Shown here: in pieces, positions 4,270-60,568 of the stretch
Position numbering within the stretch: the first letter of the stretch is position 1
Layout: each line of letters begins with the position of its first letter
Virus record (IMG/VR): IMGVR_UViG_3300049043_000112
Coordinates: 1-64,000 of that record
Strand: one strand, 5' to 3'
Length of the DNA stretch: 64,000 nt
Source of the DNA: a virus
The notes under the pieces: model-generated
The model's input: only the letters and a program-made list of their open reading frames with translations
The model's database searches: none
Told to the model about the DNA's origin: nothing
Program-made: the position numbers and the translations under genes

Positions 4270-4639
4270 TAGAGTGCCTGTAACTGAGAAAGACATTCAT
4301 TATCTTCTGGAATATCATGAATTTGAGTTCTAGGATATTCCGGAAACGATTTAAAAATAAAAGAAAACTTTTAATTGATGGCCAGAGTTCACTTTCTAAA
4401 TTATAAAAAAGTAAAGGAACTGTAGCATCATTAAAAACATTAAAAAGTATAATTAAATGATTTAATATTAGGTGGGTTTTGAGTTCACCAGTATTTTTAT
4501 ATCTCTTCAATAATCTTTTAACATACCTAATTCTCTTCAAATCAGTTTCAAAATCCTCCATAGTAATTGCTTGAGGATTTTCATAGAATTTTATAGCAAA
4601 TAACAAATAATTATTTTCATTCAATTCATCAAATCTCAT
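4269..4639 (-). CDS. Conserved hypothetical phage protein (one frame break)
   Basis: Starts MRFDELNENNYLLFAIKFYENPQAI and runs about 123 codons. The middle is helical and basic (KRIRYVKRLLKRYKNTGEL) followed by hydrophobic helices (HLILNHLIILFNVF). The frame breaks near 4350 in a T-rich run. In the shifted frame it continues SFPEYPRTQIHDIPEDNECL and ends QLQAL at TAA 4269-4271. That stop overlaps the next gene's start as TAATG, which is strong evidence for the corrected end. No known domain is recognised. It is cotranscribed with the two genes downstream. Confidence 0.65.
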
Positions 4640-5515: not shown

Positions 5516-7007
5516 TCAGTCTCTTGGAGAATGCATCATATCTTGTGCTCTTTGAGCAGCAGCACGACGCATTGCTACTTTTTGTTCTGGCGATCTAGGT
5601 CCACCATATTCACCAGCGGTTGGTGGTTTCTTACCAGGAACTTTTTTTTCACCTCTTGGTTTAACACCCATTCTACCCGTACCCATAGATTTAGCAACTA
5701 ATTCAAATGCTCGGTCACGGGGTTTTCTTGGAGTTTCTGATACCTTATCTTCCTTTCTTCTTTCATCAATTTGTTCTACTTCTTCAGCAGCAACCATTAC
5801 AATAGGATTTCTTGCTCCTCTAAATCTTGCAGCGGTTTTAGCAAGATTTACTGCTGTTGGAATTGAACGGGGATCCATTTTTTTATCTTTAATCCCCATT
5901 TTATCTTTATCTTCACATCCACCGTCTGCTGCTTCTTCTACTTTTTCAGGAAGACCCTTATGCTTTGTTTTAGCAAATTTCTTTGCTTCTTTCTTGGTCA
6001 TACCTTTAGCAGCTGCTGCTACTTCTGGAGATGCTGCCTTTTCACCTTTCTTAGCAGCATAAACCATTCCCATAAAACGCTGCTGTGCTTTACTGAGTGC
6101 CTTCTCTGATAATACAGGTCCTTCCATTTCATGGTGAGCAACTTGCATATAAGAAGTTACATTTCTTCCAACACCAGTTCCAGGAACTTCTGGATTAAGT
6201 TTAACAGTGTTTTTACCCTTCATCACATCAATTTGCTTATTATTTGCATCTTGATTAGATTTTTCATCATTTACTTCACCAAGAAATTCTTCAGATACAC
6301 CACCCTTCTTTGCAATTGCAGCACCACGAACATCTCTACGATGCTTCAAATACTTATCAGTCTTATCTACTTTACCATCATTATTTACGTCAGAATCTTC
6401 TTTGCCAACGGATCTAATTTTTCACCACGCTTTGCTCTTGCAGTCTGTTCACCTTTTTTCTTTCACCCTCATAAGGTTCACCATATCCCGTCATTTCAAC
6501 AGATTCAATATTTGGATTGGCACGAAGAGCACTAATCTTATCACGAGTTGCGTATCTTACATATGAACGACCATCTTTACCAGTAACTCTTACCTTATAC
6601 TTTCTATGTTCGGAAGACTCTAACTTTTCCATATAAGTTAGAACAATCGGTTCTTCTTCTTTTTGAACACCTTCAACAAATACCTTATATAATGCAGTTG
6701 CTACACTATTTGAAGCAAACTCTTCGATGTTAAAATCTTCTGCTTGCATTCCACCTTTACCAAATAACTTCTGCTTTACTATAGTCTTTTCTTGCTGACT
6801 CATATTACTATTTTGCATATATTGCGAATATGCCTGACGAAGAGGAAGTTCTTCTCTTCTGGCACGATAACGAATATCGTAAATTGCTTGCTTTGCTCTT
6901 TTTTCGGGAGACTTTCCACCTGCTTCCTTTTTATCTCCAGCAGCATCTGCATCCGCTGCAGGAGCGTGTTTTCTTGCTGGAAGCTCTTCAGCAATATGTT
7001 TTTTCAT
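5516..7007 (-). CDS. Virion-associated protein with EF-hand-like loop (two frame breaks)
   Basis: About 497 codons, start [14 protein letters not shown]. The N-terminal half has an Ala/Lys-rich segment and a compact domain with [20 protein letters not shown]. Two one-base A-tract losses at about 6430 and 6455 break the frame. Corrected, it reads [20 protein letters not shown] then the EF-hand-like loop [15 protein letters not shown]. The C-terminal 280 residues are Lys/Ala-rich and basic ([36 protein letters not shown]). Proteins with this GEQTAR/VGKED/EF-loop arrangement are frequent in cyanophages and are probably packaged or structural. A CATAAATA late promoter lies 33 bases upstream. Confidence 0.72.
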
Positions 7008-7016
7008 GAGTAAACT

Positions 7017-8322
7017 TTACTTCTTACTTTTTCTATACTTATTTATGAAATCAATTCCGTAAGCGACTCCACCAGGTTGAAGATTTTCTTTCCCAGTACC
7101 AACTGCTCCTGGAGTTTGTTTTGCAGCGTATTTGAAATATCCAGTAGTTCCAATTAATGTATTAGGTTTTCCAGGTTGTCTATACATTTTATCCATTTTA
7201 ACTTCAGTATATTCAACCAAATCTTTAATCCAAGATTTAAACATTTGACCAGATTCTGTTACACAGATAAGATAATTGGTACCTCTACGAATAATACGTC
7301 CTATTAATCCAGTATTTAAGTTTTCTACTTTTTCACCAAGTTTAAAAATTGTTTCTGTAAGATAATTTTCACGCAGATTTTGATAATCAAACTTTGGAGC
7401 AATTTGCCATATGTCCCAACCTTCCTTAACATTCATTGAACCACGAAGAATATTGAATAATTCTTTTGCCTCTGAAGGTTTGACTTCGGGAGGAAGACCG
7501 GATCTAAATGTTTTAAAATCTCCTTCTGCGGCAGCAAGTCTCATTCTTGATGCAGACATTCCTTCTACACCTTTTGCATCAGGGTCCCTATCGCCAGATG
7601 AAACGACTTCAATGTTATCAAAGTTATAAAGTTGTCCATTATATTGGTTAGAAAGTTTTTCAAACTCCTTGACTCTATCTGCACCACCAATAATTCTTAC
7701 ACCAGCATATCCATTATTATGTGCCATTTTGAGCACGTCAAATATAGTTTTAGTATTTGCATCATTAACAATATTTCCTGCATGATTTGGATAAAACTTT
7801 TGCATATAAGCAATCTTTGTATCGGGATCTAATGGATTCTTTTTCTTGTCCTGACTTCTTGAAGGAAAGATAAGATACTGCCCATCCTTATCCTGTGATG
7901 CTGCTTGTGCTGCAGTATCCATTAATTGTTGATGCCCAATTGTCAGGGGGATTGAAACGTCCAAAAGCAACAGTAAGAGTTCCTTTTGTTTTAGGTACAG
8001 GAAGATACTGTGCTGGCGGTTGTTCCTGGGATGCTTGTTGTTCAGGTGCTGGTGCTTGTTGTTGCGCTGCTGCTTGCTGCTGAACTAATGCTGGATCAGG
8101 TATATCCAGGAGATGCAATTGTTTTTTCTTTTTCAGTCTGTGCTGGATCTTTTCACCAACTCTCTGTCGCTTATTATAAAACTTTAATTTTCCACCTTCT
8201 GTTTTTGCTACGAATTCTCCCTGCTTATCATACCATCCACCATGACCGTCTCCAACAAGTCCAAGACGCTGTGCTTGCTGAGAGGCAGATGCTTCTGTTA
8301 TGAATTGGAAAAAACTTTTCAT
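7017..8322 (-). CDS. Nucleotidyltransferase (NMNAT/cytidylyltransferase-like) with capsid-targeting-like leader (one frame break)
   Basis: About 434 codons. Residues 1-10 (MKSFFQFITE, then A) resemble the T4 internal-protein leader MKTYQEFIAE|A cleaved by gp21. A basic domain and a Gln/Ala/Pro-rich linker follow. The catalytic domain begins TVAFGRFNPPTIGHQQLM, the (H/T)xGH nucleotidyltransferase motif, once one extra G near 7945 is removed. It continues with GVRIIGGADRVKEFEKL and EGMSASRMRLAA, resembling the ISSTxxR motif. After that comes a KOW-like segment (EKVENLNTGLIGRIIRRG) and a C-terminal motif KPNTLIGTTGYFKYA. The fold suggests adenylyl or cytidylyl transfer, perhaps NMN to NAD, but the substrate is not readable. 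Head packaging is inferred from the leader. Confidence 0.75.
7040..7047 (-). promoter_or_regulatory. Putative late promoter (CATAAATA)
   Basis: Minus-strand CATAAATA fits NATAAATA and lies 33 bases upstream of the gene starting at 7007, inside the last codons of the nucleotidyltransferase gene. Confidence 0.45.
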
Positions 8323-16975: not shown

Positions 16976-17134
16976 TTATTCTTCCTTTCCCTTTCCACCA
17001 CCACCAGGATTAAATGGAACTGCCTTACCAGCAGGAACATTCTGAACTTTTCCTTTCATATAAACCTTATGCGCTTTTGCCATAGGGTACTTAATGGTTT
17101 TTATTTCATTAAGAAAGTGGGCGAAAGTTTTCAT
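16976..17134 (-). CDS. Small basic protein with capsid-targeting-like N-terminus (52 aa)
   Basis: ATG 17134 opens MKTFAHFLNEIKTIKYPMAK and ends with a glycine/lysine tail FNPGGGGKGKEE at TAA 16976-16978. The first ten residues (MKTFAHFLNE) follow the pattern MKxFxxFxxE seen in other proteins of this window and in T4 internal head proteins (MKTYQEFIAE). The L-x-E end fits the T4 gp21 cleavage rule, though the next residue is Ile rather than Ala or Gly. The function is unknown. It lies between hsp20 and the terminator at 16911-16952. No clear ribosome site is visible. Confidence 0.62.
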   Translation of the reverse strand: MKTFAHFLNEIKTIKYPMAKAHKVYMKGKVQNVPAGKAVPFNPGGGGKGKEE

Positions 17135-34701: not shown

Positions 34702-36105
34702 TCACATAAGGTTAGCAACTTTAACTCTTCTGTAGTAGACGTTAGCGTTGGTTGTAAGAGCACCAGCACCTGCGGTAAGACCCTCTGCGAATGGGTTAGC
34801 AACCATTCCATAACGGGTCTTAAATCCAATCTTAGGCTGGAAGGTATTCTCACCAACTGCACGTACCATCTGGAGAGGTACGTATGGGCAGTAGAAGAGA
34901 CCAGCATCATAAGGTGAAGAACCCTTGTATCCAACAACGTAGAACTGGTTAGCAGCAACGTTTGCCGAATATGGATCAATATAAACTCTATACTTACCTT
35001 GGAGAACACCAGCGAAGGTGTTGCCAGTGTCATCAACGTTCAAGTTAGCGTTGAGTGCAGGGGTGTAATCGAGAACACCAGCCATTGCAAGTGCCGAAGC
35101 AACGTCAGCAGAGCAAAGGATCGTGTTACCCTTCCCTCTACGAGTTTGTTGGGCGATTGCGTTTGCATCACGCTCGATCTGGAAGATCAGACCCTTGAAC
35201 TTCTCAACCGACCAACGACCGTTGGAGTCAACGTCAAGGTCAAAAGTACCAGCGGTAGCAGTGTTGACCTGAGCACCAGGCTTAGCAATCTTGTAGATTG
35301 TTCTGATGACTTCACGGTTGATTTCAGCAAGAATCTCAGTGCTGAGGATGTTAGCAAGCTCAGCTTCTGCATTCAGACCGTGAATTGCCTTCAGGTCTTG
35401 TGCGAGCTCGAGTGAGTACTCAGCTTTCAGAGCACGTGACTTAGCGGTTACAGTGACTTTCTCGATCGAGAACGCCATCTGGTTGAACTGATCAGATTCA
35501 CCTAATGATTCTGCCTCATCAGTTCTCATTCCCTGACCAACGTTATACTGGTTAGCACCAGTTGCAGCGTTGTTTGCTTGGTTTGAACCATCAAGGATTG
35601 ATGGGTTTGTACCACCTTGAGCAGTAGTACCCATACCAACAGTACCGTCGGTCCAGCCATTGGTATTGTTGAAACCACTATCTTGACCAGAGAATGCGGA
35701 ATCTACTTCGTTATAGAAGGTTTCAGATCCACTCTGAGTCTTATAGCGTGAACGCATTGCGAAGATAAGTCCAGTAGGACCATTCATTGGTTGAACGCCA
35801 CACAGATCGTAAGCGATCAGGTTAGGCATTGAACGGCGAATAAGGGAGATTAGTACAGGGTCGAAACCTTGTAGTGCTCCAGTTGATGCGCCACTTAGAC
35901 CAGTTCCAGTTCCAGTTGAAGTGCTGGTGAAGTTGGTTGGTGCTTCGTAGAGAAACTCACGCTCTTCGCGGATAGTTTTCTCTTGGTTTTCAAGCAGGAT
36001 AGCAGTTACCGCTCTACGATGTGAATCTTTGATTTCATCGAGACCTGAGTAGTCCAGAATTGGTGCCCACTTCTCCTGCAGTTGTTCAGTGTTGTACATC
36101 TGCAT
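34702..36105 (-). CDS. 23: Major capsid protein gp23
   Basis: Main head protein, 467 aa before cleavage by gp21. The N-terminal part is the cleaved region (MYNTEQLQEKWAPILDYSGL, HRRAVTAILLENQEKTIREE). Then come PNLIAYDLCGVQPMNGPTGL and IFAMRSRYKTQSG, VTAKSRALKAEYSLELAQDL, and the C-terminal VRAVGENTFQPKIGFKTRYG. These are the conserved gp23 segments. The frame is intact. An AGAGG ribosome site lies 11-12 bases before the first ATG; a second ATG two codons later is possible. A strong terminator follows. Confidence 0.97.
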   Translation of the reverse strand: MQMYNTEQLQEKWAPILDYSGLDEIKDSHRRAVTAILLENQEKTIREEREFLYEAPTNFTSTSTGTGTGLSGASTGALQGFDPVLISLIRRSMPNLIAYDLCGVQPMNGPTGLIFAMRSRYKTQSGSETFYNEVDSAFSGQDSGFNNTNGWTDGTVGMGTTAQGGTNPSILDGSNQANNAATGANQYNVGQGMRTDEAESLGESDQFNQMAFSIEKVTVTAKSRALKAEYSLELAQDLKAIHGLNAEAELANILSTEILAEINREVIRTIYKIAKPGAQVNTATAGTFDLDVDSNGRWSVEKFKGLIFQIERDANAIAQQTRRGKGNTILCSADVASALAMAGVLDYTPALNANLNVDDTGNTFAGVLQGKYRVYIDPYSANVAANQFYVVGYKGSSPYDAGLFYCPYVPLQMVRAVGENTFQPKIGFKTRYGMVANPFAEGLTAGAGALTTNANVYYRRVKVANLM

Positions 36106-36154: not shown

Positions 36155-37323
36155 TCACTTTTTGGCGACTCTTGTAAGAGTTTGAAGATATGCTTCCATA
36201 ATTGGGGAGACAGACTTAACTTCTCCTTCTTGTGAGGCATCTTCAGACAGACTTTCGGAGTCATCTTTTTGAGTACCAGTATTTGTTGGGAAATATGATT
36301 CCCTCAGAGTTACCAGTTTCTCACGATAGTTTGCTTCACTATCAAACTCAACATTTTCTGCAAGAGAAGCGAGTTTGTCCTTCTGAGAAAGTGCAAGACC
36401 CTCAGCGACATCTGCAAAGATTACATCAGCAACTGACTCTGCTAATCTTCTATTGAGAGCAACGTTTCTTTCGATTTGCTCGTTGAGTTTTTCTTCCATT
36501 TCATCAAGTTTATCTACCATACTCTCGATAACATCATATCTATCTTCAGGGATTGTTACATAATGATCTTCAAAAAGACTCTTCATTCCGGCAAGGAATG
36601 ATTCTGTCATTTCAGTCTTAAGACCGTGCTCAACTGCGAGTGCATTTTCTTGGATCCACTCGTCAGCAACATACTCAAGGTAAGCATCAACTCTGTCGGT
36701 CAGGCTTTCCTTGATTGCTTCGATTTCTTCTACAAGGGTCTGCTCATAAGCAGATTGTAGAGATTCTTTAATTTCAGCAACCTTAGATTTGATTGCTGCT
36801 TCGAAGATGGTACGGCTTTCTCTTCAAATTCTTCAGAAAGCTCTTCACCTGCAAGAAGGGCATTGACATCTTCTTCGATATCAAACTCTTCTTCCATTTT
36901 CTTTTTACCTTTCTTTTTACCACCTTCTTCTTCCTCTTCCTCTTCTTCCTCCTCTTCTTCTTCCTCTTCTTCCTTGGCTTCGGTTACTTCCTCTTCACCA
37001 TCTTCTAGTTCTTCTTCATCCTCTACTTCTACGAGTTCTTCTTCATCCTCAACTTCTTCTTTAGCAACAGATTGCATTGGTTCAGCAGCTGCTGCCTTTG
37101 CATTAACTACATTCTTTACTTGAGCAAGAGTTTTGCCTGGAGTATTGAGATGTGCTGACTCGTCATCTGGACGATAATTTTCCGGAGTTGGACCACCTAA
37201 ATCTTCCCAAGCGCCAGTTTGTCCTGGAGTAATAGATCCAGTACCGGATTGCATTGGTTCGGCAGGTGCAGCCCCTTTGGTTACTACGTTTTCCATTTCT
37301 TGTAAATTTCTACCAACGGACAT
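36155..37323 (-). CDS. 22: Prohead scaffold gp22 (one frame break)
   Basis: Core scaffold protein degraded by gp21 after head assembly. The N-terminal third is loosely ordered and contains two similar segments (ENVVTKGAAPAEPMQSGTGS and KNVVNAKAAAAEPMQSVAKE), then an acidic region with a run of more than ten glutamates followed by a lysine cluster. The frame breaks near 36815; the shifted frame reads TIFEAAIKSKVAEIKESLQS and continues as coiled coil (EIEAIKESLTDRVDAYLEYV) to MEAYLQTLTRVAKK. Corrected length is about 390 codons, longer than T4 gp22 (269). Late promoter TATAAATA is upstream. Confidence 0.87.
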
Positions 37324-37363: not shown

Positions 37364-38014
37364 TTATAGATTTGAAAGAAATTCTTGGAACAATTGTACT
37401 TTATGTTCCTGTAGAACTTTTTCATCAACTAGCGTATTTATTCTACGCTTAGTTGATTCTGCCAATCTTTCACGAAGAATTCCTCCTTCCCAGACCCATT
37501 CCTTTCCTTCCATAATTCCTGAAACAAATGCATCAGGGGCAGAAGGATCGGCAACGATATCTGCTGCTGTTGCAAGCATAAAATCTTCACCAACAATTTT
37601 GCAACCACTGTGATCCTCTTTTAAAGAACCAACACCACGAGAGGAAACTCCAAGAGTAACCCCTTCATCAATTAGGGATGAAGCAATTTTACCCATTGGG
37701 GTGGATAAAAGTTGTGCTTTACCAATAAAATTACTTCCATCTTGATAAAGTTCGCAAATTTTATGAGATACTCTATCAAGATTTACGGTTGGTCCATCAG
37801 GGTGCCCAAGTTCACCAAGAGCACGACCTTTAGCAATGAAAGATTCGGCATATCTCTTAACCTCTTTAGAAAGAGTGTCTAAAGGATACATTCTTCCATT
37901 ACGATTTTTGATGTTTCCTTGGAGAAAAACACCTTTGATATACATTTTTTTGCCGGAACCCTTACCTTCGGTAATAAATTCTACCTTTTGAATTTCTTCT
38001 GTGATGAGTTTCAT
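37364..38014 (-). CDS. 21: Prohead protease gp21
   Basis: Serine protease that processes the scaffold, capsid and internal head proteins. It is 216 aa (T4: 212). The catalytic His is in GRALGELGHPDGPTVNL and the Ser in GVTLGVSSRGVGSL. An N-terminal segment VEFITEGKG carries an I-x-E|G site of the kind it would cleave itself. It lies between the gp67-like/structural pair and gp22, as in T4. The frame is intact. Its recognition rule supports the leader findings in this window. Confidence 0.94.
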   Translation of the reverse strand: MKLITEEIQKVEFITEGKGSGKKMYIKGVFLQGNIKNRNGRMYPLDTLSKEVKRYAESFIAKGRALGELGHPDGPTVNLDRVSHKICELYQDGSNFIGKAQLLSTPMGKIASSLIDEGVTLGVSSRGVGSLKEDHSGCKIVGEDFMLATAADIVADPSAPDAFVSGIMEGKEWVWEGGILRERLAESTKRRINTLVDEKVLQEHKVQLFQEFLSNL

Positions 38015-38756: not shown

Positions 38757-40453
38757 TTATATCTTACCACCTTTGGGTTCCTGTGGAATTTCTGTAGGTG
38801 CGGGTGCTGCTGGTTCTGCTGGAACTTCACCTAATGCTGGTTGTTCTCCTACTGCTCCTTCTGGTGGAACTCCTTCTGGTGGAATTGGATTTCCCATTTC
38901 ATCAACGGGAGCATTAGGATCTGGAAGAATACCTTTTTCAATTTCATCATCAATCTGTTGATCAATTTCAATAATTTCAGAATCTGTTTGGCGAAGAATT
39001 TTTTTACGAACATACTCTGTAGAATAATATTTTCCAATATAAGGTTCAACTTGTGTCATCAATGAAATACGGTTTGTTAAAATTTCTGCTTCCTTTAGTT
39101 CTGCAAAATGATTATCATATAAGAAGTCATATTGAATATGATCCTCCATCCTTTCCCAATCTTCTGGAGAAACAATATTCTTCAAAAGAAGTTGAGTACG
39201 GAGCATATCATTAAACATATTCGAAAAACGCTTTCTAAGTCTCCCTACAAACTTAGAAAACTTAAGTTCATCTCTTAAAATTTCAGATGAACGTCCAAGA
39301 TTAAACCCATCTCCTCCACCAGCAATTCTTGTTTCTGGAACTCCAAGTGCTCTATAAAGTTTCTTTTGAAAATATTCAATATCTGCAAGTTCACCAAGGT
39401 TTTGACCACCAGGTAAGGTTGTAATCTCGGTTCCTCTACCACCTCTCTTCTTGGAAGCCAAAAATCTTCCAGCATCGCCATATATTTGCGATCATCACGA
39501 ATTTCTCCAGTATTTGCATCATAAACAAGTTTATTACGATAACGACTCATCACTTCTTTAAGATATTGCTCTGCTTTTACTTTAGGAAGATTGCCAACAT
39601 CGATATAGAAAATTCTTCTTTCTGGAGCACGTGATAATCTGTAGATAACCAGAGAATCTTCAATCATTCTTAACTGGTTAAGTGCTTTAATCGCTTTATG
39701 AAGATATGAAAGTACAGTTCCTTTATTTCTATCTACAAGTCCAGAAGTGCAATAAGTAATTGAATCTTTTGCAATTTTAAGTGATCCTTTTGCTGCTCCA
39801 CTCAAAGAACCCATGGGATAATTTGGTGCTGGAGAATAAATGAAATATTCTTCAACATCAGAATAACTCATTTCTGAGTTAGTAAGATTTGCATTTGCGG
39901 TTAAAGTACTTACGATTGGTTGTCCATTTTTGCCGTTCGTCTTTACCTCTTGACGAACATGCTTCATTTTCATTGGATCAATGTATCTGATTTCTTTTAT
40001 ACCTTCTTGTGGTTTTTTAGTATCAATAACTTTCAAGTAATATAATCTACCATCAACATACCAATTCCTAAAAATTTCATGACACTTTCTATCAAAGTCC
40101 ATCATCTCTTTGATGGACTTAAATTCATCACGAATTGCTTTTTTGAGTTTATCGCTAGCATTTAAATTTGATAATTCAATTTCAACTGGAGAATCATAAA
40201 GATCACTTACAAGGGCTTCGTTTACAACATCTTCAATCGCAGCATCACACTCCGGATGTAATGCCATTTCACGATAACGACGCATTAAATCAAACTCAGT
40301 TCTATAGACACCTTCAATATCTACATACTGACCGTAGAATCCAGATTGAATATAATAATCAACCCCGTCCTCATCTGTCTGAGGAACGGGGGATACTATA
40401 GATTTGGATTTTTCCTCTGTATCTTCAATCGAAAAACCAAAAAGTTTCGCCAT
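38757..40453 (-). CDS. 20: Portal protein gp20 (one frame break)
   Basis: Dodecameric portal through which DNA enters the head. Key segments: FYGQYVDIEGVYRTEFDLMR, HPECDAAIEDVVNEALV, WYVDGRLYYLKVIDTKKPQE, RLSRAPERRIFYIDVGNLPK and MAMLEDFWLP, after which the frame breaks near 39453. It then continues RGGRGTEITTLPGGQNLGEL and GVPETRIAGGGDGFNLGRSS, and ends in a Pro-rich tail. Corrected length is about 565 codons (T4: 524). It is widely used as a cyanophage marker gene. Confidence 0.95.
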
Positions 40454-43559: not shown

Positions 43560-45258
43560 TTAACGATAATCCCACATATAAGAACGATCACCATATTCAT
43601 CTAAATTCCAAACATCAGTTGTTTGCACTCCATTTTCTTTTGTTGCAAACATCCATCTATCTCCAGTTTCTTTTTCTATAATATCATCCATATCTTCAAA
43701 TCCATCAGAAATAAATCCAAATGGGGACATATCTTGTTCTATCTGATTTTTTTGTTCTTCATAAATTCTTTTACGAACATCATTGTCCGTCATCTCTTTG
43801 AAATAATCCTGAGCAACTAACCAAGAGAAAATTACAAGACACATTGCTAAGTCATCATTACAACCTTCTTCTGCTTCAAATGAATTATGACGTTGTGCAA
43901 ATGTAGTAAGTTCTGATATAATATCATAATCAACTGTTAATAACTTATCATCTTCTAGTAATGTTTTTAAATTAGAGCATCCTAATTTCTTAACAGATGC
44001 AGTCATTCTTACGCCCAATTGAGATTTCTTTCCACTAAATCCAGAACCAACCAATTGACCAGCTCGTCCTCTTATTGCACACATTAAAACATTATCATAC
44101 TCTAAATCAAAGTGCATAATATTTGCTACTTGATTCTCCAATATCATTAACTTCTATTAATAACCAAGCATCATTGTAACCTCTTGCTACTTCGTTAATA
44201 ATACTTGGAAATAGCATGGGTTTAATTTCGTTATTGCGATATTTTGCTACAACTTTATACGGAAAGTTTGTAATATCAAAAACAATAAATGCAGAGTAGT
44301 CATTTCCAAGTCCACGAGCAACATCAACTGTCATCAAGTAGTTGTGTTCTTCAATTGGATTTTCATAAATGTCTAAACCAGCGTTTCTCTTAATTGGGTC
44401 TTCATAAACAAGATTTCTAAGTTTTGCTGGATTAATCAGCGTATTAACAGAACCTAAGAATTCACATTCAAATTCTACCTTGAATTGTTGTTCTGAAGTG
44501 TTTGCAATTGTCTGTTCTTTCCAGACAGCATCTCTACCAGGCACTTCAGACCAATGAACATCAGTCGGTACATATTCATTTTTACCGCGTTCGGAATCAT
44601 GCCACATGCGGTAAAAATGGTTCATACCACGTGGTGTTGAAACTATGATGACTTTTGTGCTTTGTCCAGAAGAAATAGTAGGATAAACAGAGGCAAAGAA
44701 GTCATCAGCAATGTGATTCGGGATGAAAGCGAACTCGTCAAGAAAGATGACATTATAGGATCCGCCTCGGACAGCAGACGAAGAAGTAGAGTTAGATGAA
44801 ATCTTGGAGCCATTTTCTAATTCCAACGATCCTTTGTTCCAGGATATAATACCCTGTTGCATCCACTTTGGTAAATTCTATAAGCAAGTTGTAGTCTCCC
44901 AAGTAGGTCTCTAGCAGTAGATGCTTTGTTTGCTAGAATAGCTATATTTACATTATCATTAAATACCGCATAATGTAACAAATATGAAACGCAAGTTGTA
45001 GATTTACCCGTTTGGCGGGGCATCTTACAAATATTAAATCTGTTCTTATGGAAATTATGAATTAGTTTCTCTTGAAACGGATACATCTCTAAAAGGAACA
45101 AGACCGTGATCCAGAGAAACAATTTTAATGTAGTTTCTCGCAAAATAAACAGGATCTTCTTTACACTTTAAGAACTCGATAATTTGTTCTTCAGTGAATT
45201 GGATTTGCGTATTTGCTTTTTTTAAATTTGGATTACCAAGATATACATTATCACTCAT
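43560..45258 (-). CDS. 17: Terminase large subunit gp17 (three frame breaks)
   Basis: DNA-packaging ATPase and nuclease. N-terminal QIQFTEEQIIEFLKCKEDPV and ARNYIKIVSLDHGLVPFR. Walker A region is MPRQTGKSTTCVSYLL, Walker B NVIFLDEFAF, coupling motif STPRGMNHF. The RNase H-like nuclease has VDVARGLGNDYSAFIVFD, and near the C-terminus NDDLAMCLVIFSWL. The frame breaks near 45088, 44868 and 44132. Corrected length is about 566 codons (T4: 610). There is no insertion at the breaks, so an intron is unlikely. Confidence 0.95.
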
Positions 45259-46580: not shown

Positions 46581-46892
46581 TTATTCACCCCAGGATAATC
46601 TTTCTGGTCTGTATCTTTCTGTATTTTTAATCTTTAATGGATTGGTTGAATTTGGATAAACGTTATGGACAATGGCACCTGGATACTCTGCTTGAAGTTG
46701 TTCTGCAAGTGCGTTCTTATCCATCATTTTTCCTTCAACTTCCATACGATAAAGTCTTCCTTGCCAAACTATATCAGCAAGAAAAGATTCAGTTGCAGTT
46801 TCTTGTTGGGATGAAGAATTCATATAAAGATTTCCGTTGAAATCTCCAGAAATGTTGATACTTTCTGAAATAAATTGTTGAAAGGATTTCAT
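46581..46892 (-). CDS. Small protein with capsid-targeting-like leader
   Basis: A 103-aa protein. The N-terminus MKSFQQFISESINISGDFNG fits MKxFxxFIxE|S, the pattern of T4 internal-protein leaders (MKTYQEFIAE|A). The rest reads NLYMNSSSQQETATESFLAD, IVWQGRLYRMEVEGKMMDKN and ends with PLKIKNTERYRPERLSWGE, perhaps a small alpha/beta domain. It lies between the structural gene at 46577 and a basic virion-associated protein. If cleaved, the mature part would be about 93 aa and lie inside the head. Function unknown. Confidence 0.72.
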   Translation of the reverse strand: MKSFQQFISESINISGDFNGNLYMNSSSQQETATESFLADIVWQGRLYRMEVEGKMMDKNALAEQLQAEYPGAIVHNVYPNSTNPLKIKNTERYRPERLSWGE

Positions 46893-46893
46893 T

Positions 46894-47523
46894 TTAGTTG
46901 CAGTTCCAACGACGAAGGGCTTTGTTAATTCTTGAATCTGGATCTCTTGCAGTTTTAGCAGAAGTTAGTTTGGATTTCATTCCGGACATACGTCGGCAGA
47001 AGTTTGCACGACGCTTTGCTCTTTTACCAGTTGGTTTCTTTTCGGTTACAGCAGTTTGTAACTTAGAACCTGGATTCTCACGTCGATAAGCGTCTACTGC
47101 TTTTTGACTAAGACCATCAGTTTTATCCTGACGATTTACTTTTTGCCAATCTTCCATAAATTGACTAAAAGTTTTATTTTCTTGAACTCTACCCATAATT
47201 TGATCAATCTGCTGCTGTTGTTTTTCATTTCTTTGTTTAATTTTTTCAGCAGTTACTTTTGCTTTATCATATACCATTTTACCTGCCAGTGCAGTTCCTG
47301 CTGCCAGTCCAGCACGAATACCCAATCCAATCAGAGGATTTTCATTTAATTCATTAGACTCTTTCATTTCTCCACTATCTACATAATCTGCTGCAGTATC
47401 AATATAATCTGCTGCTTTAGTAATTTTTGATTGAACCCAAGCCTCAATATTTCCTTCTCCCTTCATTTTTTTACGAAGTCTTTTTGCTGCAGAAATAATT
47501 GTAGAAAGTTCAGAGCGAGCCAT
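46894..47523 (-). CDS. Virion-associated protein with DUF6321-like C-terminus
   Basis: A 209-aa protein. The N-terminal half has amphipathic helices and a hydrophobic Gly/Ala segment (IGLGIRAGLAAGTALAGKMV). Residues ~113-125 read ENKTFSQFMEDWQKV, similar to the leader motif but internal. The C-terminal ~80 residues (DGLSQKAVDAYRRENPGSKL, RAKRRANFCRRMSGMKSKLT and SRINKALRRWNCN) form a basic, cysteine-containing module common in marine phage proteins. It may be a head-internal DNA-binding or crosslinking protein; that is inference. The frame is intact. Confidence 0.68.
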   Translation of the reverse strand: MARSELSTIISAAKRLRKKMKGEGNIEAWVQSKITKAADYIDTAADYVDSGEMKESNELNENPLIGLGIRAGLAAGTALAGKMVYDKAKVTAEKIKQRNEKQQQQIDQIMGRVQENKTFSQFMEDWQKVNRQDKTDGLSQKAVDAYRRENPGSKLQTAVTEKKPTGKRAKRRANFCRRMSGMKSKLTSAKTARDPDSRINKALRRWNCN

Positions 47524-47536
47524 TGAATACTCATGA

Positions 47537-48619
47537 TCATAAGACTTCAGGAAAATTTCCAGGATGAACAGTTGCGATATTATATTTTAATTGGTTTGTT
47601 GTTAATGCAGATGGTCTAGAAAACATATCCCAATACTTAGATCCATACTTACATTCATCACGAGTTTCATCTTTTTTACATTTAGGGCAATATCTAATCA
47701 TTCCTTGCTCCTCTTTTACTGGTATGCAATTTGGAACCAATTTTTTACCTTTCTTTTTCATTCCTTCTTCCTTATACCCATCCCAACAATCTTCTGATTT
47801 TGTTCCCCAATTTGCAGCACCAACTTTACGACATTTGACCAATGCTCCTGAAGCATATGCACTTGGCCAGACATCATATCTTGACTTAACTTTTTGGTAA
47901 CAGGCATCTTTTTTACCACTACCTTTACCTGGTTTATCTTTAACTTCTTGTAAATCCATTTCTTCAGTTCTTACGTTAGTTGGTTTTGCTCCACCAGTTT
48001 TTTCTGGTTGATTAGGATCTAGACGATTTTTTCTTCTTCTTGCCTTTTCCTCTTCTTCTGGAGATAAATTTGCTGCCATTTTAGAACTACCGCATTTTGG
48101 TGTAGAAGTTTGACCTGGTTGGCGAGCACATGGTTTTCCTGCATATTTGCCTCCAAGTTGAACCCAACCTTTTTTTCCATCAGAAGACTTTGATTTGCCA
48201 AACCAGTCATGAAGACCTTCATCACCAGAAGTTGTTTCTTCTTTTACATCTTTGAACTTTTTATGATGCTTTTTAGCATCAGATTCCATTTTTTTCAAAC
48301 GAGTATAATAATCTGGAATTTCATCAAGATGTTGAAGAGCAATATCAGTTGCTAAGTCTTTATCCTTTGTATGCTCATGTTCAATTGGAATACCCATTTC
48401 AAGTTGCTTCTTTACAAAAGAAACTTCAAGACGATGTTTTTTTGCAATCTGTTCAACCGATTTATGAGATTTCAATTCGTGCATTTCATTGAAAGGAGAT
48501 TTTGATTGAGTTGATTCACCTTTTGCTCTTTTTTTACGAGCAGCACAGTGTGCTTTTTGAGAAAATCCCTAAGGACTATCACAGTTTATTGATCTTTTGT
48601 ATTTGTCAGACCAACTCAT
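47537..48619 (-). CDS. Multi-domain virion-associated protein (in-frame TAG)
   Basis: About 360 codons from MSWSDKYKRSINCDSP at ATG 48619. An in-frame TAG at 48569-48571 follows; the same frame continues GFSQKAHCAARKKRAKGEST. Domains: a cysteine-containing N-terminal unit; a DUF5661-like helical unit (HTKDKDLATDIALQHLDEIP, DYYTRLKKMESDA); a unit with KGWVQLGGKYAGKPCARQPG; one with KPGKGSGKKDACYQKVKSRY and VWPSAYASGALVKCRKVGAA; and a final zinc-like YCPKCKKDETRDECKYG. These are common cyanophage modules of unknown function. The expected codon at the TAG is AAG (Lys), so the stop looks like a one-base change. Confidence 0.68.
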
Positions 48620-49060: not shown

Positions 49061-49857
49061 TTAAATATCAGTTTGTCTTGTAGGACTAAATTCCTTACCG
49101 TCAAAGAACATTTCAATTGACTCATCAAATCCAAAATCATCAGTTGGTTGTGCATCAATTGGATCGGGAGTTACAGTATATCTCATCTCTCTCTTTGCAG
49201 TCTGAGTATCTGTACCAGTATAATAATCAACTTGAACCTTACGAATAAGACCATCCGTACTTTCAGCAATAGGACCAAATAGATATGTTTTAGCAGTAAA
49301 ATTGAAAGTATAAATCAATATTCTTCTAGATGAAAAATCTCCTTCATAATCATCTGTAAAAGAAACATTATCAAGAACAACTGGAATATCTCTTTTTCTC
49401 CAATCGAATCTACTAAATCAACTGTTAACGTAAAAGCAGGTTGAAAATATGGCAGAATTTGTTCAACAACTTGTAAAGCATCATCTTGAATTTTACTCAT
49501 CAAATTAAGTTGAAATCCAAGATTATAAGGAACAGGAAGGTATACTTTTTTAAGATTATTACCATCTTGTACTTTAAAAGTTTGCGTTATATTTGCTTTT
49601 CTTGTAGGATCGTATTGTATTGATGTCATCTCAAAAGACAATCGAGGAAGAGTCATTGCAATTGGTTTATTTAATTCCGACTGTTGTTCAATCCTAGCAA
49701 GAAATTTTTGCATTGGACCATAAGCTAATGGAACTTTTATCTGACTAATACTGCCTCCAGAAGAATCTTTATGGCGAATATTAATATCATTAAATAAAGT
49801 ACCAAAGGAGATAACAGTTCTTCTAATAATTTCGTGGTAATAGTAAGTACCTAGCAT
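49061..49857 (-). CDS. 15: Tail terminator/sheath stabilizer gp15 (one frame break)
   Basis: Caps the tail tube and sheath before head joining. MLGTYYYHEIIRRTVISFGT and KVPLAYGPMQKFLARIEQQS are classical gp15 segments. The frame breaks near 49398 in an A-run; the shifted frame reads RDIPVVLDNVSFTDDYEGDF, then FNFTAKTYLFGPIAESTDGL and ends in SPTRQTDI. Corrected length is about 265 codons (T4: 272). The start ATG overlaps the gp14 stop. Order gp13-gp14-gp15 is as in T4. Confidence 0.92.
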
Positions 49858-51248: not shown

Positions 51249-52091
51249 TATCCAATAAAATCGTAAGGAGGAAGTTCATAATCCATCGACATTCTCTGTC
51301 TGATGCTCTCTAATTCTCTTTCAGCATCATCATATATTTCTCTACCATTCAATTCAATTCCACCAGGAAGTTTAACTCCCCTAAATTTAATTAAATTCTG
51401 ACCCCACTGACGTTTCATCAACGCAGTCAGATATTTTTTTAAGAAACTATCATTATAAACTTTGGTGAAATCATTTGGATCTGAAAATTCTGTAACAATC
51501 AATAACTATAAAAGTATCTTTTTCTTTCGCTCCCCAATCAATATCAAGATACAATCTATTTTGTCTTTTATTAAAACGTATCTGCTTGTCTGTTGATAAA
51601 AGAAAATCAATATCTTCAAGATAAGTTTTTACCATTGCATATTGTAAGAGTTCAACAGAGTTGAAATAATACAAGTCATTTAAGAAAAGTTGATATTTAA
51701 TACTGAACATTCCAGCGGAAATTGAACTAGTATCAAATTTAAAAACTTTTTCAATGCCTATAACACTATCAGGAACTTGAATAAAGTTTGTGTTTTCATA
51801 AAAATTGAATGATGTTGTCCCAATTCCAGAAATTGTCGTAGTTCCAGTTGTAGTTACAATTCCAACTCCATTTGTATATTTTGCTCTTGCTCTATCTAAA
51901 TCTGCTTGTGTAATTTTGTACTTTAAGTACATTCTTTCAACACCATCAAAGTGTCTTTCATGAAAATACTGTAAAGCATCATCAACTAAATCATCAATTT
52001 GTTCGTCTGATATATTAATTTCTAATACCGGTGCCCCCAGTCTTCTGAGACAGTAATCGATTAATTCTTGTCTACTTGTAGGTTTTGACAT
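51248..52091 (-). CDS. 13: Neck protein gp13 (one frame break)
   Basis: Head-completion neck protein. MSKPTSRQELIDYCLRRLGA and EINISDEQIDDLVDDALQYF are diagnostic. The frame breaks near 51485; after that LDPNDFTKVYNDSFLKKYLT and RQWGQNLIKFRGVKLPGGIE follow, ending in YELPPYDFIG. Corrected length is about 281 codons (T4: 309). Its start overlaps the upstream stop as TAATG, and the stop overlaps gp14's ATG. Confidence 0.93.
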
Positions 52092-52637
52092 TAGTACAAT
52101 CCTCCATCGATTGCCCCTGACCAGGTTGGAACTCCAGCGCCATTAGTTGTCATTATATAGTTGCTATCATCAATTCCATTTTGTGGACTTTGAGTGGATA
52201 CCATTAATCCAGAAGAATTAAAATATGGCATACCATTTGTATAATATGGACCATAATATAATCCACCAGGTAATAGTAGTAATACCAGTTATTCTTGCAT
52301 TTCGTGCAGTAAATTCATCAAAGAAAATATCATCATTTACATATAAATCACCACCAATATAAACATCATTTCTAAATGTTGATACTCCTACAAAAGTAGA
52401 AACACCTAAAACATTAATTCCTGTATTTGCAGTTAAGATACCTGCAAATATTGCACCATCTCTAAAAGTAGCAAGTCCAACTATTGTTGAAATTCCACTT
52501 ACATAAAGTTCTCTAACTGAAGCGATTCCACCGATTACATTTTCAGCACTAACTGCTCTGCCTCCAGCAGATCCAGAAAGGCTGGAAATAACTTTAACGG
52601 CATTTTGTTGCCCAACTCGGACTTTAATATCTGCCAT
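52091..52637 (-). CDS. Virion structural protein with repeated short strands (one frame break)
   Basis: About 182 codons. MADIKVRVGQQNAVKVISSL is followed by short Gly-Ile-Ser-Thr strands (VSGISTIVGLATFRDGAIFA, VLGVSTFVGVSTFRNDVYIG) like those of phage fibre proteins. The frame breaks near 52258; the shifted frame reads GGLYYGPYYTNGMPYFNSSG and ends in PTWSGAIDGGLY. The corrected stop (TAA 52091-52093) overlaps the gp13 start as TAATG, which supports the join. It is a common cyanophage structural protein; location in the particle unknown. Confidence 0.75.
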
Positions 52638-53368: not shown

Positions 53369-56300
53369 TACGCTAGGGCAATACTTCTAAGATCTCTAAA
53401 CCTTGGAGCATATGCTTGTGATCTTCCTGACATGACGAGTTTAATTGTATATCCAGTGAAACTTCCAAGATTGTTAGCACTAAATTCATATTCTAAAAAT
53501 TAATCCTTTAAGCTTGCAGGAACAAACACATCTGGAAGTCCACTGTTTTTGGATGGATCAACAATATCCAAATATCCGTCTTGATTATTGTCAATAGTTA
53601 AATTATTGTATCCAGGGAATAGTTCAAATGCTTGACTTACTTCACTCGAATCGGGTCTAATTAAACTATAAAGAACTCTAAAATCTGCAGTTGAATCTCT
53701 ATAAGCACTTAATATAACTTTCAGAGATGTTGCTGGTTGTTGCAGTTTTACGGTATTTGAAACATAAATTGATGCATGTGGATCACCAATAATGTTATTA
53801 ACTCTATTATCTAAAGTATAATCTGCAATTGGAGAATTTAATCTGTTACTTATAAGTTGTGCAGAAGACTCCTGCCAGAAAATAACAGGAGAAACGTTTT
53901 GATCGGTTGTTGATAAATCAACTTTAACGGTAAACGATTTATTTCTCAATACAGATCCAAGATATGTTTGCTCGTTAATATTTGAGCATACAATTCTAGT
54001 CGAATTTAGATTATTTGCAACTCCTATTTCTACAGGTTCATAACCTAAATCTACAAAAGAACTTTCAGTTCCATTTACACTAGTTCCAGATATGGTTCTT
54101 ATTTGAGCAAGACTAGAAGTTACTGCAGAAGGATTGACAACTGATATTTGTGGAATAATGGTATTAAACTGAATGTTTTCGGAAGATCTTACTTCAGTTC
54201 CGCCGCACAACGCATTGGAATTAAATGATAACTGAGGAGCACTAGTAATTGATCCATCTGTTGATCTATTAGTTACATTAGCATCAAATGCAAATCTATC
54301 AACTTCAATATAGTAATTATCAATATCAATGCCAGTATCGCTAATATCATGTGTTTTGTTAATTCTTCTTAAGGATACTCCACCAAGTTCATACTTATAA
54401 ACTTGTGTATTGGTTGGATAAGTTAGAACTAGCGTGGAATCAATACCTCTAGTAATTCCATTTAATGTACCACTTCCTACAGAAGTATATTTAATAATTT
54501 CATTTTCAATCTTAACAAATCCAGGATTTGTTGCGCTTACAGTAAGACCTTCAAAAGTATTGAAGTTAGATGTAGAAGCAACACTAATTGTCGTGTTTGT
54601 TGATGTAATTGGTTGTGCAAGAGATGTGGGTATGATGTCAGTAATTGCATTTGAAATAGTTATCTTGTTGGTATTCGCATACATTCCATGATTAAAGTGA
54701 TTTACTCTAAAGAAGTTTCCAGCGTTAATACCACCAATTGCAGTTGATGAGAGGACACTTGTACCAGCAATTGAAGTGGCATTTCCAGAAGTATCATAAT
54801 AAACTAAGGTTGAAATACCTGCCGTTGTGAAAGAATTCCCTTGAACATTTGAAAGGTATAATGTATCAAGACCTGTAATAGAGTTAATTGTAATTCTTGC
54901 GTTTCTTCCAGACACTGAAGAAACAGAAGATGTGACAATTCCAACAACATCACCAACAGAATATCCATTTCCTGGACTTACAATTGTCGCAACACCTACA
55001 ACACCACTAGTAGCAGTGATGTTCAGAGTCAATCCTGTTCCATTACCAGTGATTGCGTATGTTGAAACTACACCATTTGAGTAATTTGTTCCACCAGTGG
55101 TTATTCCAATTGTTGCAACAGAACTTCCAGTACCAACAATATAGCCATTAAGTATATGGAGTTCCAACTGAAGAAACTTTTCTACCTGTAGTTAAGATAC
55201 CGATATTTGTTGCTGAAGTTGTAGTTGTAATTCCAACTTTAAGTTGTCTGGGTAATAAAGTGAATGGATTTGAATCTAATTTTGGAACATATCCATTACT
55301 TTCGTTTAGGGTTGGATTATGGAAGAATGCACTTCCTGTAGAAGAAACAAATTTAGATTTATACAGTTTAAACTTTAAATCTTGATATTGATTTGCTGTC
55401 CATATAGATCCATTTTGTGATTTGAATAGACTTCCTAAAGCAAACTGTCTTGAATATCGAATGCTTTGTGAGTCTGGTAAGGTTGAGGTTTCAATAGTCT
55501 TTTGACCCATTTCAGCAATCCAAACTTCATATTGAATCACTTTGGGGTGCAAGAAGAACAATTGCATATTCTAATCCTGGTGCAAGGTAAATAGGATGAT
55601 CAAATGTAACTTTTGTTGCAACCGACGCATTTTTTGAAATTTGGATATCACTTGGTTTTAGTGTTACTGGATTTCCAAGAATTTTTGTTGTTGGCGTTCC
55701 TAGTTCAACGGTTCTAACTTCAACAGTAAGTGGTGCATTGCCAGGATCTTTATTTGCAAAATACAAATCAACTGCAGTTAAAAACGCACCATTAACGTCT
55801 TCATTTGGAGTGTTTCCATTTAAGTTGTCTGTAGATGCACCAACAGTAAATGACTGCGCTAATGGATCAACATAATAAATTGTTGTTGTAGATGTAATTG
55901 TTCTTTGTTTTTGCTGCCAAGTTCCTTCAGACTTATAAATTGTCTCTCCACTTGAAATCAGATTACTTCCAGGAAGAGGAACTTCGTTAGTTGAACTAGA
56001 TGTCAACTTGTAAACTTTAGATCCTGTTGCAATTCTAATCGCAGGAGTTGGATTTGTATTTGGATCTTTGAGGAAAAATGCTCCTGCTAAAAATCCATTA
56101 GAAATCACTAATTAATCTAAGATCTTTTACATAAGCAACTGCACCGCTTGTTTGCCCAACAAGTTTCATACCCAATGCTAAATATCCAGAATACAAACCT
56201 TGTGCTTCAGAACATAAAGATTCCGTATCAATATTTAAAACCTTAGATGATGCACTGTAGGACGCTGGAATATTTTCTGTAGTCGAATATGGGTTTGTCG

Positions 56301-59300
56301 TATATGTAACTGATGGATCACTATATGGACCTTCTTTATGATTTGCTTTTGCAACTCTAAAACTAATTGCCTGACTTAAAACTCCAGAAGTAGTATTTAC
56401 ATATCCAAAAACTTTTTCACCGACTTGGAAAGATGATGAAGCACCGTAGTTTTGAAGAGTTAAGTCCGTAGCAATTTCTACAAGTTTTGGAACAAAATCA
56501 ACCAATCCATTTCCATCTAAGAATTGGTAATATCTAGTTAAAGGTCTTAAGTTTACTGCTTTAAATCCAGTATTTCTGGATCTCATATATAACTCTTTTC
56601 CAGTTGCAACAACTTGATCAACGGTTGAAGTGCTAGTGCTTTGCCCAACAACTTGATAACGTCCAGTAGCATACAACCATACCCAATTTGTTTGGTTAAC
56701 ATTTACGTCTGGAAGACGAATAGTTCTAACCCAACTATCACTTGCTGGACTTAATTTAATAGTTCCACTATAAGAGACAATATTGAATGGATTAACGTTT
56801 TCAACCTTAGTTGCAAATAACTGTTCAATCCAACCAATTGAATTATATTTTAATGTGAGAATTTCTCCAGTTTTTTGAACATTTGAATCAAATAGAGTAA
56901 AGTTTTGGGATAAATCTAATGTCTCATCTGTAACACTTTCGGCAGAAACTGGTTTAAGATTTATTGTATTTTTACTAGTTTGTGTTATTAATTCATCATT
57001 ATCAGTATCTACTTCAATTTTAGATATTTCTAAATTAATTAAATCTGTATTTTTAAAGTCGTCAACAAAGAATCCTGTTTTAAAGCGACTTAATCCTTGT
57101 GCATCACGTATTTGGAGTGTTTGTGTATTAAGTTCTAATAAAGATAAAGAAGTAACTCTTTCTAAATTGTTGACTCGATTTTCAATCTTGCCAATATCAC
57201 GCATCGTATATCTCTTATTATCCACAAGAGTTATACCTGCGTCTTTAGGATTGTATAAGTATGGTGGTAATGTGATTGTAGCAATTTCTATGGAATCGCT
57301 TGGTTTTGCTGGTTCTTTTGGTTGTACTGCTGGAGTTCCTTGAACCACTGCAAATTTGCCATTTTTATCAATGAAAAGTTTATCAATTCTTCCAAGATAA
57401 AACTGATATCCAATTAAAGCACTTTCATTGGGGGACATTAAAATTTTTGGTTCTGATCCAAAAGATCTTGAAGAAAAATCAAAAGGTGATGCTGAAGTGC
57501 TTGTAAATTGAGAAACTCTTGGTCTAAAGTCTAGAGTATCAGAAGATCTAATATTATTTTTACCAATTAATGGAATGTCTGAAGTAAATCTTTCGCCATC
57601 ATAACTATTAACAGTAAATACATCTCCGGTATCACTTGTAGGTACAGAATAATAGTCAAAAACTACTAAAAGTTGTCTTGATGGAGCACTTTCTCCAGAA
57701 TTTCGAACAATTTTTGAATAATCATAATATTGAATCTTTTTGCCCTTTATCTAAGGTATATTTTGTTGTTATATTTTTAAAACTTCCAAGAGTAATAGTA
57801 GAAATTGTAGTTTGAATGTTAGATTCTTCAAAAATTACCTGTTCTCCTTCAGAGAGAGTATTTCCATTAAGATAAACAATCCCTAAATTGTTTGTGGAAG
57901 GTTTTGAAACAATTCTGGCGACTGCGTTACTTGTTTTTCCAATAATATTTTCTCCAATAATTGCATTACTATCGACATTTACTACAGAACTAAATGAAAG
58001 TCTAGTTGGAACTGGAGCATTTGTATCAAGAGATTCATAAATTGCAATTACTTTAACAACATCTGGATAATTTAAACTAATTTCTTCGTCCTGAACTCTT
58101 AATCCATAATATTGATTATAAATTAACCCATCATTAACAGAAGTGTTTACACCAACACCAGATTGTGGATTTTTAGACAAAGTTATATTAATAGTTTTAC
58201 TTCTATTAAACTGCTTGACTTTGCTTTGAATAGAATTTTTTACAAAAGTGGCGTTAATTACTGAAATGGATTTGTTGGAAATATTTGTAAATGTTACTTG
58301 AGAAGAATTGCCACTTAAAGCAACTTTATCTGAAGTTAAATTTTCAATTGTTCCATCAGCATAAAAAATTGAATATCTTTCTTCGTCAAATGCTTCAAAT
58401 CTTGCAGAAGATGTATTAATTCCAAGATTAAAATTACTGGTGCTGACTGTAAGAGATCCACCAGAAGGAGTTAAAGTTCCTGTTGATTGTGCAGTAAACG
58501 TAATTGTTGAAGTGCTTAAATCTGTGGAAGCAATATTTGAATCTGGAAGTTGTGCATACAAAAATCCCTTTTCATCGTTTAGAATTTTTGTTTCACCTAG
58601 AGAGTATGATCCACTATATTGAGAAGTAGGTAATGCACCATCACAAACACCGTTTACACTAGTAACACTAGCAAGTGTAAGTGATAATCCAGTAGAAGAG
58701 ACAGAAGCAACTCTATTATATGTTTCAGTAGATATTCCTGCTCTTTGATATCTAACTATATTATCTGTTTTAATTCCGACAAAACTAAATGGGGAAGAAA
58801 CTGTTGCTGTGCTAACTCCAGCACTTGCAGCAGTAATTGTGATTGTTTCTGGTCTTAAAGTTTTACTTAGTTGTGTATCTGCTATAAAAGCAGTACTAAA
58901 TCCTGATATAGAAGTTGGTTGATGAACCAATCTAACATCCTCTATACTATAAACCTTAATAGAAGATATAAATCTAGAGTAATTTTCTGATCCATTGATT
59001 AAAATCTGTTCACTAACTGAAAATGTTCCAGAAGTTTGACTTAAAAGAACAGCAGACCCACTAATGGAAGCAACATACCCACTTGCACCGCTACTTTTTC
59101 CTTTTATGAAAGAAGATGTTGGTAATTCAGTTGAAGTTAAAGATTGATTTAAAGTTAATTCAGTATAAGTTTGAACATCATATAGATACAAGTCCCAGTT
59201 AGTAGTTTGATTTGAATATGCAGCATCAGTTACGTTAAATGTATAAACCCTTGCAGAACCAACGGTTGAACCTGCAGCAACAGTTGTACTGTCTTTTCTT

Positions 59301-60565: not shown

Positions 60566-60568
60566 CTT

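Follow-up and report, generated by a model that had tools for sequence, protein, structure and literature searches.

The nucleotidyltransferase gene at 8322..7017 (minus strand, not a single open frame) encodes an enzyme that is probably made late, loaded into the prohead of a T4-like cyanophage by a cleavable leader and ejected into the host as cargo. The window, the whole stretch of DNA analyzed here, comprises bases 1-64000 of a 236,016-base IMG/VR virus record, and the source phage is a T4-like cyanophage. In the proposed mechanism, the gene would be expressed late and its product loaded into the cyanophage prohead, with residues 1-10 acting as a T4-type capsid-targeting sequence in which F4 and F7 guide the enzyme toward the scaffolding core. 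A gp21-type protease would then cut after E10 in an [IL]-x-E|A site, a form shared with the major capsid protein of the phage. The mature enzyme would remain with the DNA, be ejected at infection and act before phage gene expression, where it may adenylylate NMN/NaMN or a similar mononucleotide, a reading with an even chance at best. A module of approximately 40 residues would provide a second N-terminal element shared by several unrelated head enzymes. Docking, cleavage, ejection, the substrate, and the role of the second module are steps that we infer. The features are listed in Table 1.

Table 1. Features of the nucleotidyltransferase locus and related genes in the window (feature, position, strand, basis or remark)
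late-promoter-like motif AATAAATA (ATAAATA), 45 bases before start codon	8361..8368	-	upstream motif count
leader MKSFFQFITE, predicted capsid-targeting sequence	8293..8322	-	conserved positions 2, 4, 7, 8, 10, 11
shared N-terminal module, about 40 residues (QAQRLGLVGDGHGGWYDKQGEFVAKTEGGKLKFYNKRQ)	8164..8286	-	also on kinase and phrog_3561-family proteins
low-complexity Gln/Pro/Ala-rich linker	7984..8163	-	pLDDT <50 in model of a relative
HIGH-motif nucleotidyltransferase domain, two frames (GRFNPP, then TIGH ... SASRMR)	7431..7983	-	PF01467 in 40/41 relatives; Foldseek
frameshift site, one extra base after CCCCC	7944..7950	-	not in 80/80 relatives
small C-terminal domain (VENLNTGLIGRIIRRGTNYLICVTE..MFKSWIKDL)	7215..7385	-	phrog_4808 match
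downstream neighbor, also split	5516..7007	-	phrog_3326; next gene in S-SRM01 and P-SSM2
major capsid protein, FLYE|A in N-terminal region	34702..36105	-	site form same as that of the leader
gp21-type prohead protease, presumed processing enzyme	37364..38014	-	PF03420 E 8.2e-36 at 37511-37963
phrog_1742 protein, 103 aa, starts MKSFQQFISES, predicted head cargo	46581..46892	-	same start in S-SRM01 and S-SZBM1

The leader and the virion proteomes

The leader together with residue 11 (MKSFFQFITEA) occupies 8322-8290 on the minus strand, and the predicted cut lies between codons 10 and 11 (8293/8292, MKSFFQFITE|A). Among 80 relatives, a somewhat biased sample in that the leader was part of one of the six patterns by which they were retrieved, residues K2, F7, L/I8, and E10 were each conserved in 79, F4 in 76, and A/S11 in 74, and positions 3, 5, and 9 were variable. 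The first-pass annotation had compared this N-terminus with that of T4 internal proteins, and the likeness is borne out: T4 IPII and IPIII start with MKTYQEFIAE|A. The first ten residues of IPIII are sufficient for packaging; targeting depends mostly on residues 4 and 7 and processing on residues 8 and 10, and gp21 cuts at [LI]-x-E (reviewed in PMC9026906). These T4-type determinants were retained in 44 of 45 distinct leaders. When the leader pattern was run on four cyanophage genomes, it started 11 of 836 ORFs compared to 0.08 expected from shuffled N-termini; four of these roughly 11 are nucleotidyltransferases, the family that had supplied the pattern.

In the whole T4 genome, the same pattern matched only IPII, IPIII, and gp61.1. 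The latter, a 54-aa hypothetical protein (NC_000866 18966-19130), starts with MKTFKEFIKED, akin to the internal-protein leaders, and is possibly an unrecognized T4 head peptide.

The presumed processing protease is encoded in the window, and the major capsid proteins contain N-terminal sites that match the form of the leader site, F-[IL]-[ST]-E|A: FLYE|A in the source phage, FLSE|A in S-SRM01 and P-SSM2, ILTE|A in S-SZBM1, and LLTE|A in S-CREM2. From their sequence, we infer that the capsid proteins are cut here. The sequence ATAAATA was found within 100 nt upstream of 41 of 60 homologues compared to 6.3 expected, in line with the late promoter proposed earlier, and fits late expression of the enzyme.

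Orthologues have been detected in the virions of S-SM1 (T4-GC190, in 2010; PMC3037559), S-SZBM1 (S-SZBM1_140, in 2022; PMC9146016), S-SCSM1 (ORF91, in 2022; PMC9602691), and S-CREM2 (gp154, in 2023; PMC10665884), and all four carry the leader. Presence in virions thus applies to orthologues in published proteomes and not to the source phage itself, and the statement of the first-pass annotation that no phage enzyme of this type had been described as head-targeted needs correction. A sorting signal for the enzyme is proposed in none of the four papers, as far as their accessible text goes. Our searches of openly readable literature found no description of capsid targeting in cyanophages; the one paper that mentions both names cyanophages solely in its reference list. 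Within this literature, the sorting signal, its occurrence on enzymes of different families, and the module behind it appear to be new; the presence of the enzyme in virions is already known.

The enrichment of the leader among virion proteins rests on S-CREM2, where 5 of 52 virion-detected and none of 167 other proteins carry it (Fisher p = 6e-4 for a pattern tightened after the data were seen; p = 0.009 for the looser first pattern, which 2 of the 167 match). The five proteins are the SAM lyase gp6, gp13, the kinase gp14, gp136, and the nucleotidyltransferase gp154. In S-SZBM1, the leader was not enriched: one of the 30 detected proteins carries it, and two small leader-bearing proteins were undetected.

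The detection of only a few orthologue peptides (2-3) in S-SZBM1 (PMC9146016) and S-CREM2 (PMC10665884) and of none in S-PM2 (PMC3037559) would agree with an enzyme that is abundant late and merely co-purifies with virions, its N-terminal pattern being a family feature of other purpose. The S-SCSM1 (PMC9602691) and S-CREM2 (PMC10665884) reports raise this explanation, leaving carriage versus contamination undecided and regarding carry-over in CsCl preparations as possible. We consider it unlikely, however, in view of a leader that is conserved precisely where targeting and processing are determined in T4 and that recurs on unrelated virion-detected proteins. Head targeting by a gp21-cleavable T4-like leader, as suggested earlier, is well supported by conservation, the PF03420 protease, and the virion-detected orthologues, and sequence comparison and independent proteomics agree in pointing to a T4-type capsid-targeting sequence.

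Less probable again is a packaged protein that is a structural or core component of the prohead, its fold serving assembly rather than the host cell. T4 core proteins are likewise cut by gp21 (PMC9026906) and the substrate of the enzyme is only putative, but the catalytic motifs T-x-G-H and SxSxxR are kept across relatives, and leaderless homologues are present in phages whose heads are of other types. Leader-free homologues were found in Cr30 and HTVC008M and, as proteins consisting almost entirely of the nucleotidyltransferase, in G17, PA5oct, and ACG-2014j. The PA5oct homologue is not marked as detected by ESI-MS/MS; five of its neighbors are. The reading as ejected cargo enzyme remains the one that we prefer.

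A second shared module and further candidate cargo

After the leader, the module reads RLGLVGDGHGGWYD..GEFVAKT..G.LKFY. A profile built from nucleotidyltransferase N-termini only was searched against six-frame translations of six phage genomes and found the module in two further proteins, the S-CREM2 kinase gp14 (two copies, E 1.6e-18) and the S-CREM2 protein gp12, a large phrog_3561-family protein annotated as Cas9-like (E 1.3e-11); shuffled frames gave no match with this profile. Both proteins were detected in virions, with 21 and 28 peptides for gp14 and gp12, respectively (PMC10665884). The same N-terminus is shared by the kinase of S-N03 and its large neighbor, by S-CRM01 g128 and the S-CRM01 kinase, and by ACG-2014f gp178, which is encoded near the nucleotidyltransferase of that phage. 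The module is common to unrelated head enzymes, and the nucleotidyltransferase would therefore be one of a cargo set with a common N-terminus. The occurrence of the leader on several unrelated enzymes is suggestive of a leader that suffices to package a foreign protein. As for the module, our guess is that it tethers the protein to the core or to DNA.

Searches with the module matched as many as 327 phage records; these are cyanophages almost throughout, with Xanthomonas phage X1 in addition. The X1 protein (L151 2468-2995, 175 aa) combines an MSFETYLKESA start and the module with an unrelated C-terminus and is encoded a few genes before nrdA. Scans of viral contigs gave no relative with S-CREM2 gp14 and one with the N-terminus of ACG-2014f gp178. 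A possible head-cargo cassette is seen in S-CRM01, where five adjacent genes (g131, the kinase, g129, g128, and the nucleotidyltransferase) all have leader-like starts; the S-CREM2 report (PMC10665884) cites the detection of a putative kinase in S-CRM01 virions.

Several side observations concern individual proteins. The S-CREM2 gp12 gene (L097 7704-10313), which carries a Cas9 annotation, matched no Pfam family and falls into phrog_3561. The S-CRM01 run from g131 to g127 lies at L146 749-5145. Other small proteins of the source phage that start with a leader are encoded at 16976-17134 of the window (MKTFAHFLNEI..) and at G000:C1:87532-87651 (MKTFQQFMEQV..); judged by their starts, the small leader-bearing proteins of this phage are candidates for further head cargo. 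Larger leader-bearing proteins are encoded next to or near nrdB in S-SRM01 (L126 16324-17664, 447 aa, MKSFSQFLEES) and in P-SSM2 (L138 9737-11455, 573 aa, MKSLSQFIIET), and neither matched a Pfam or PHROG family.

More broadly, we hold it somewhat more probable than the reverse that head cargo is handled by a general system in T4-like cyanophages. In such a system, a cleavable T4-type leader, often with the module (GL..DGHG.W.D..G..VA.T..G.L), would be attached to enzymes of unrelated kinds, namely the nucleotidyltransferase, a kinase-like protein, SAM lyase, and the phrog_3561 family. Their genes would stand alone or be grouped in cassettes, and the products would travel with the DNA as an early takeover kit. 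If so, the tag would mark predicted cargo in the sequences of hundreds of cyanophage genomes, and the prediction would rarely extend to other phages such as Xanthomonas phage X1. Cyanophage virion proteomes repeatedly contain non-structural enzymes that their authors left undecided between carriage and contamination. A T4-like leader offers a direct mechanism for their carriage and a sequence-based prediction of injected enzymes in abundant marine viruses; the hosts of such enzyme-bearing viruses are ocean and lake cyanobacteria.

The frameshift and the reliability of the record

The gene was assigned to phrog_395 (E 2e-92) and is a member of the cyanophage core "cytidyltransferase" family T4-GC190 / phrog_395. 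Its position between gp41/mazG and gp61-nrdA is kept in the gene order of S-SRM01, P-SSM2, and S-SM1. Relatives were found in 560 phage records, mostly from Synechococcus and Prochlorococcus phages, with further relatives in coliphages, PA5oct, Cr30, and HTVC008M. Judged by this gene, Synechococcus phage S-SRM01 is the closest isolate, with 65% identity across the full-length protein. The flexible linker described earlier after the leader is present as a low-complexity segment, and the counterpart of the small C-terminal domain is a separate gene in ACG-2014j. For the downstream neighbor, a comparison via its S-SRM01 orthologue found no homology to the virion-detected S-SZBM1_139.

The first-pass annotation had treated 7017-8322 as one gene frame and overlooked a frameshift. 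The locus consists of two overlapping ORFs: the leader, module, linker, and GRFNPP lie in 8322-7888, and everything from TIGH onward lies in 7970-7017. The motif GRFNPPTIGH, quoted earlier for the nucleotidyltransferase domain, spans the frameshift (..AAT CCC CCT G ACA ATT GGG CAT..) and is absent from both ORFs, whereas the other two motifs, GGADRVKEF and SASRMR, are present in the translated gene. With PF01467 matched by nearly all relatives examined (Table 1), the domain is a HIGH-motif nucleotidyltransferase. Relative to the S-SRM01 sequence, the window contains a single additional base behind five consecutive C (window AATCCCCCTGACAATTGGG, S-SRM01 AATCCCCCAACAGTCGGA).

The break is probably a sequencing or assembly error, because the reading frame continues uninterrupted at this site in S-SRM01, in P-SSM2, and in every one of the 80 viral-contig relatives. 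Moreover, of the 54 genes of the record that could be compared (S-SRM01 ORFs aligning to the window over at least half their length), 13, including nrdA and terminase, are split between more than one frame. A programmed +1 frameshift giving leader-only and full-length products, for which the five-C run directly before the shift might speak, is highly improbable and was rejected, being seen in no relative and in a record full of breaks. With this fraction of split genes, the gene calls of the record, which has many single-base errors, are not trustworthy. Broken-gene stretches of the window lie at 404-2712, 4275-4639, 5774-7007, 36158-37323, 38763-40453, 43563-45249, 46900-48619, 49064-49740, 51251-52637, and 53374-62168. 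The two frames were joined by hand for database searches, and an intact relative (L013) was used for structure prediction.

Enzyme fold and comparison with known systems

The AF2 model of L013 reached a pLDDT of about 80-91 over most of the nucleotidyltransferase domain. Foldseek neighbors of this model in the PDB were a mixture of CoaD, NadD, archaeal NMNAT, and FAD synthetase; the NMNAT and FAD synthetase comparisons suggested in the first-pass annotation are therefore represented, but CoaD leads. The role in NAD or nucleotide pools also suggested there is held only tentatively: a NadR model was the best NCBIfam match and scored far below its cut-off, as did NadD. The enzyme obtained 23.5 bits against a cut-off of 341 for TIGR01526, an NMN/NaMN adenylyltransferase equivalog, and 16.6 bits against 112 for TIGR00482, so that no equivalog cut-off was reached. 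A profile search of the PDB gave nothing useful (best E 0.03). Based on sequence and model comparisons, we lean weakly to NMN/NaMN as the substrate to be adenylylated.

A candidate NAD-pathway neighbor near nrdB, annotated as "NAD synthetase" in S-SM1 and S-SRM01, was rejected, since by Pfam it is a GIY-YIG SegE-type endonuclease; it therefore lends no support to the NAD reading. The misannotated genes are T4-GC213 in S-SM1 and its S-SRM01 equivalent (L149 34999-35460 and L011 28969-29400).

Compared with the T4-GC190 / phrog_395 genes of S-SM1, S-SZBM1, S-SCSM1, and S-CREM2, the gene described here has the same family, neighborhood, and leader but is split by a frameshift in this record. With the NMN/NaMN adenylyltransferases NadM, NadR, and NadD, the cyanophage enzyme has the superfamily fold and motifs in common, although its equivalog scores are far below cut-off and the CoaD fold match is equally good. 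Phage NAD+ reconstitution by NARP1 rebuilds NAD against an NAD-depleting defense, a task that would suit an injected NMNAT; NARP1 uses Adps and Namat (PMC12774641), whereas a role of the cyanophage enzyme in NAD synthesis or counter-defense is hypothetical.

Like the T4 internal proteins IPII and IPIII, the cyanophage enzyme starts with a leader of ten residues that is aromatic at positions 4 and 7 and has I/L at 8 and E at 10, with A/S following at 11, and the cyanophage also encodes a gp21-type protease. In contrast, the cyanophage cargo is a HIGH-motif enzyme rather than a small inhibitor, its leader is followed by the shared module of approximately 40 residues, and its cut and targeting are predicted from sequence. 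The T4 Alt protein is a head-packaged ADP-ribosyltransferase that is processed by gp21, stays in the head and enters the host along with the DNA. The proposed head carriage, gp21 processing, and injection of the cyanophage enzyme resemble this system in outline, whereas its fold and chemistry are unrelated and its leader sequence is different.
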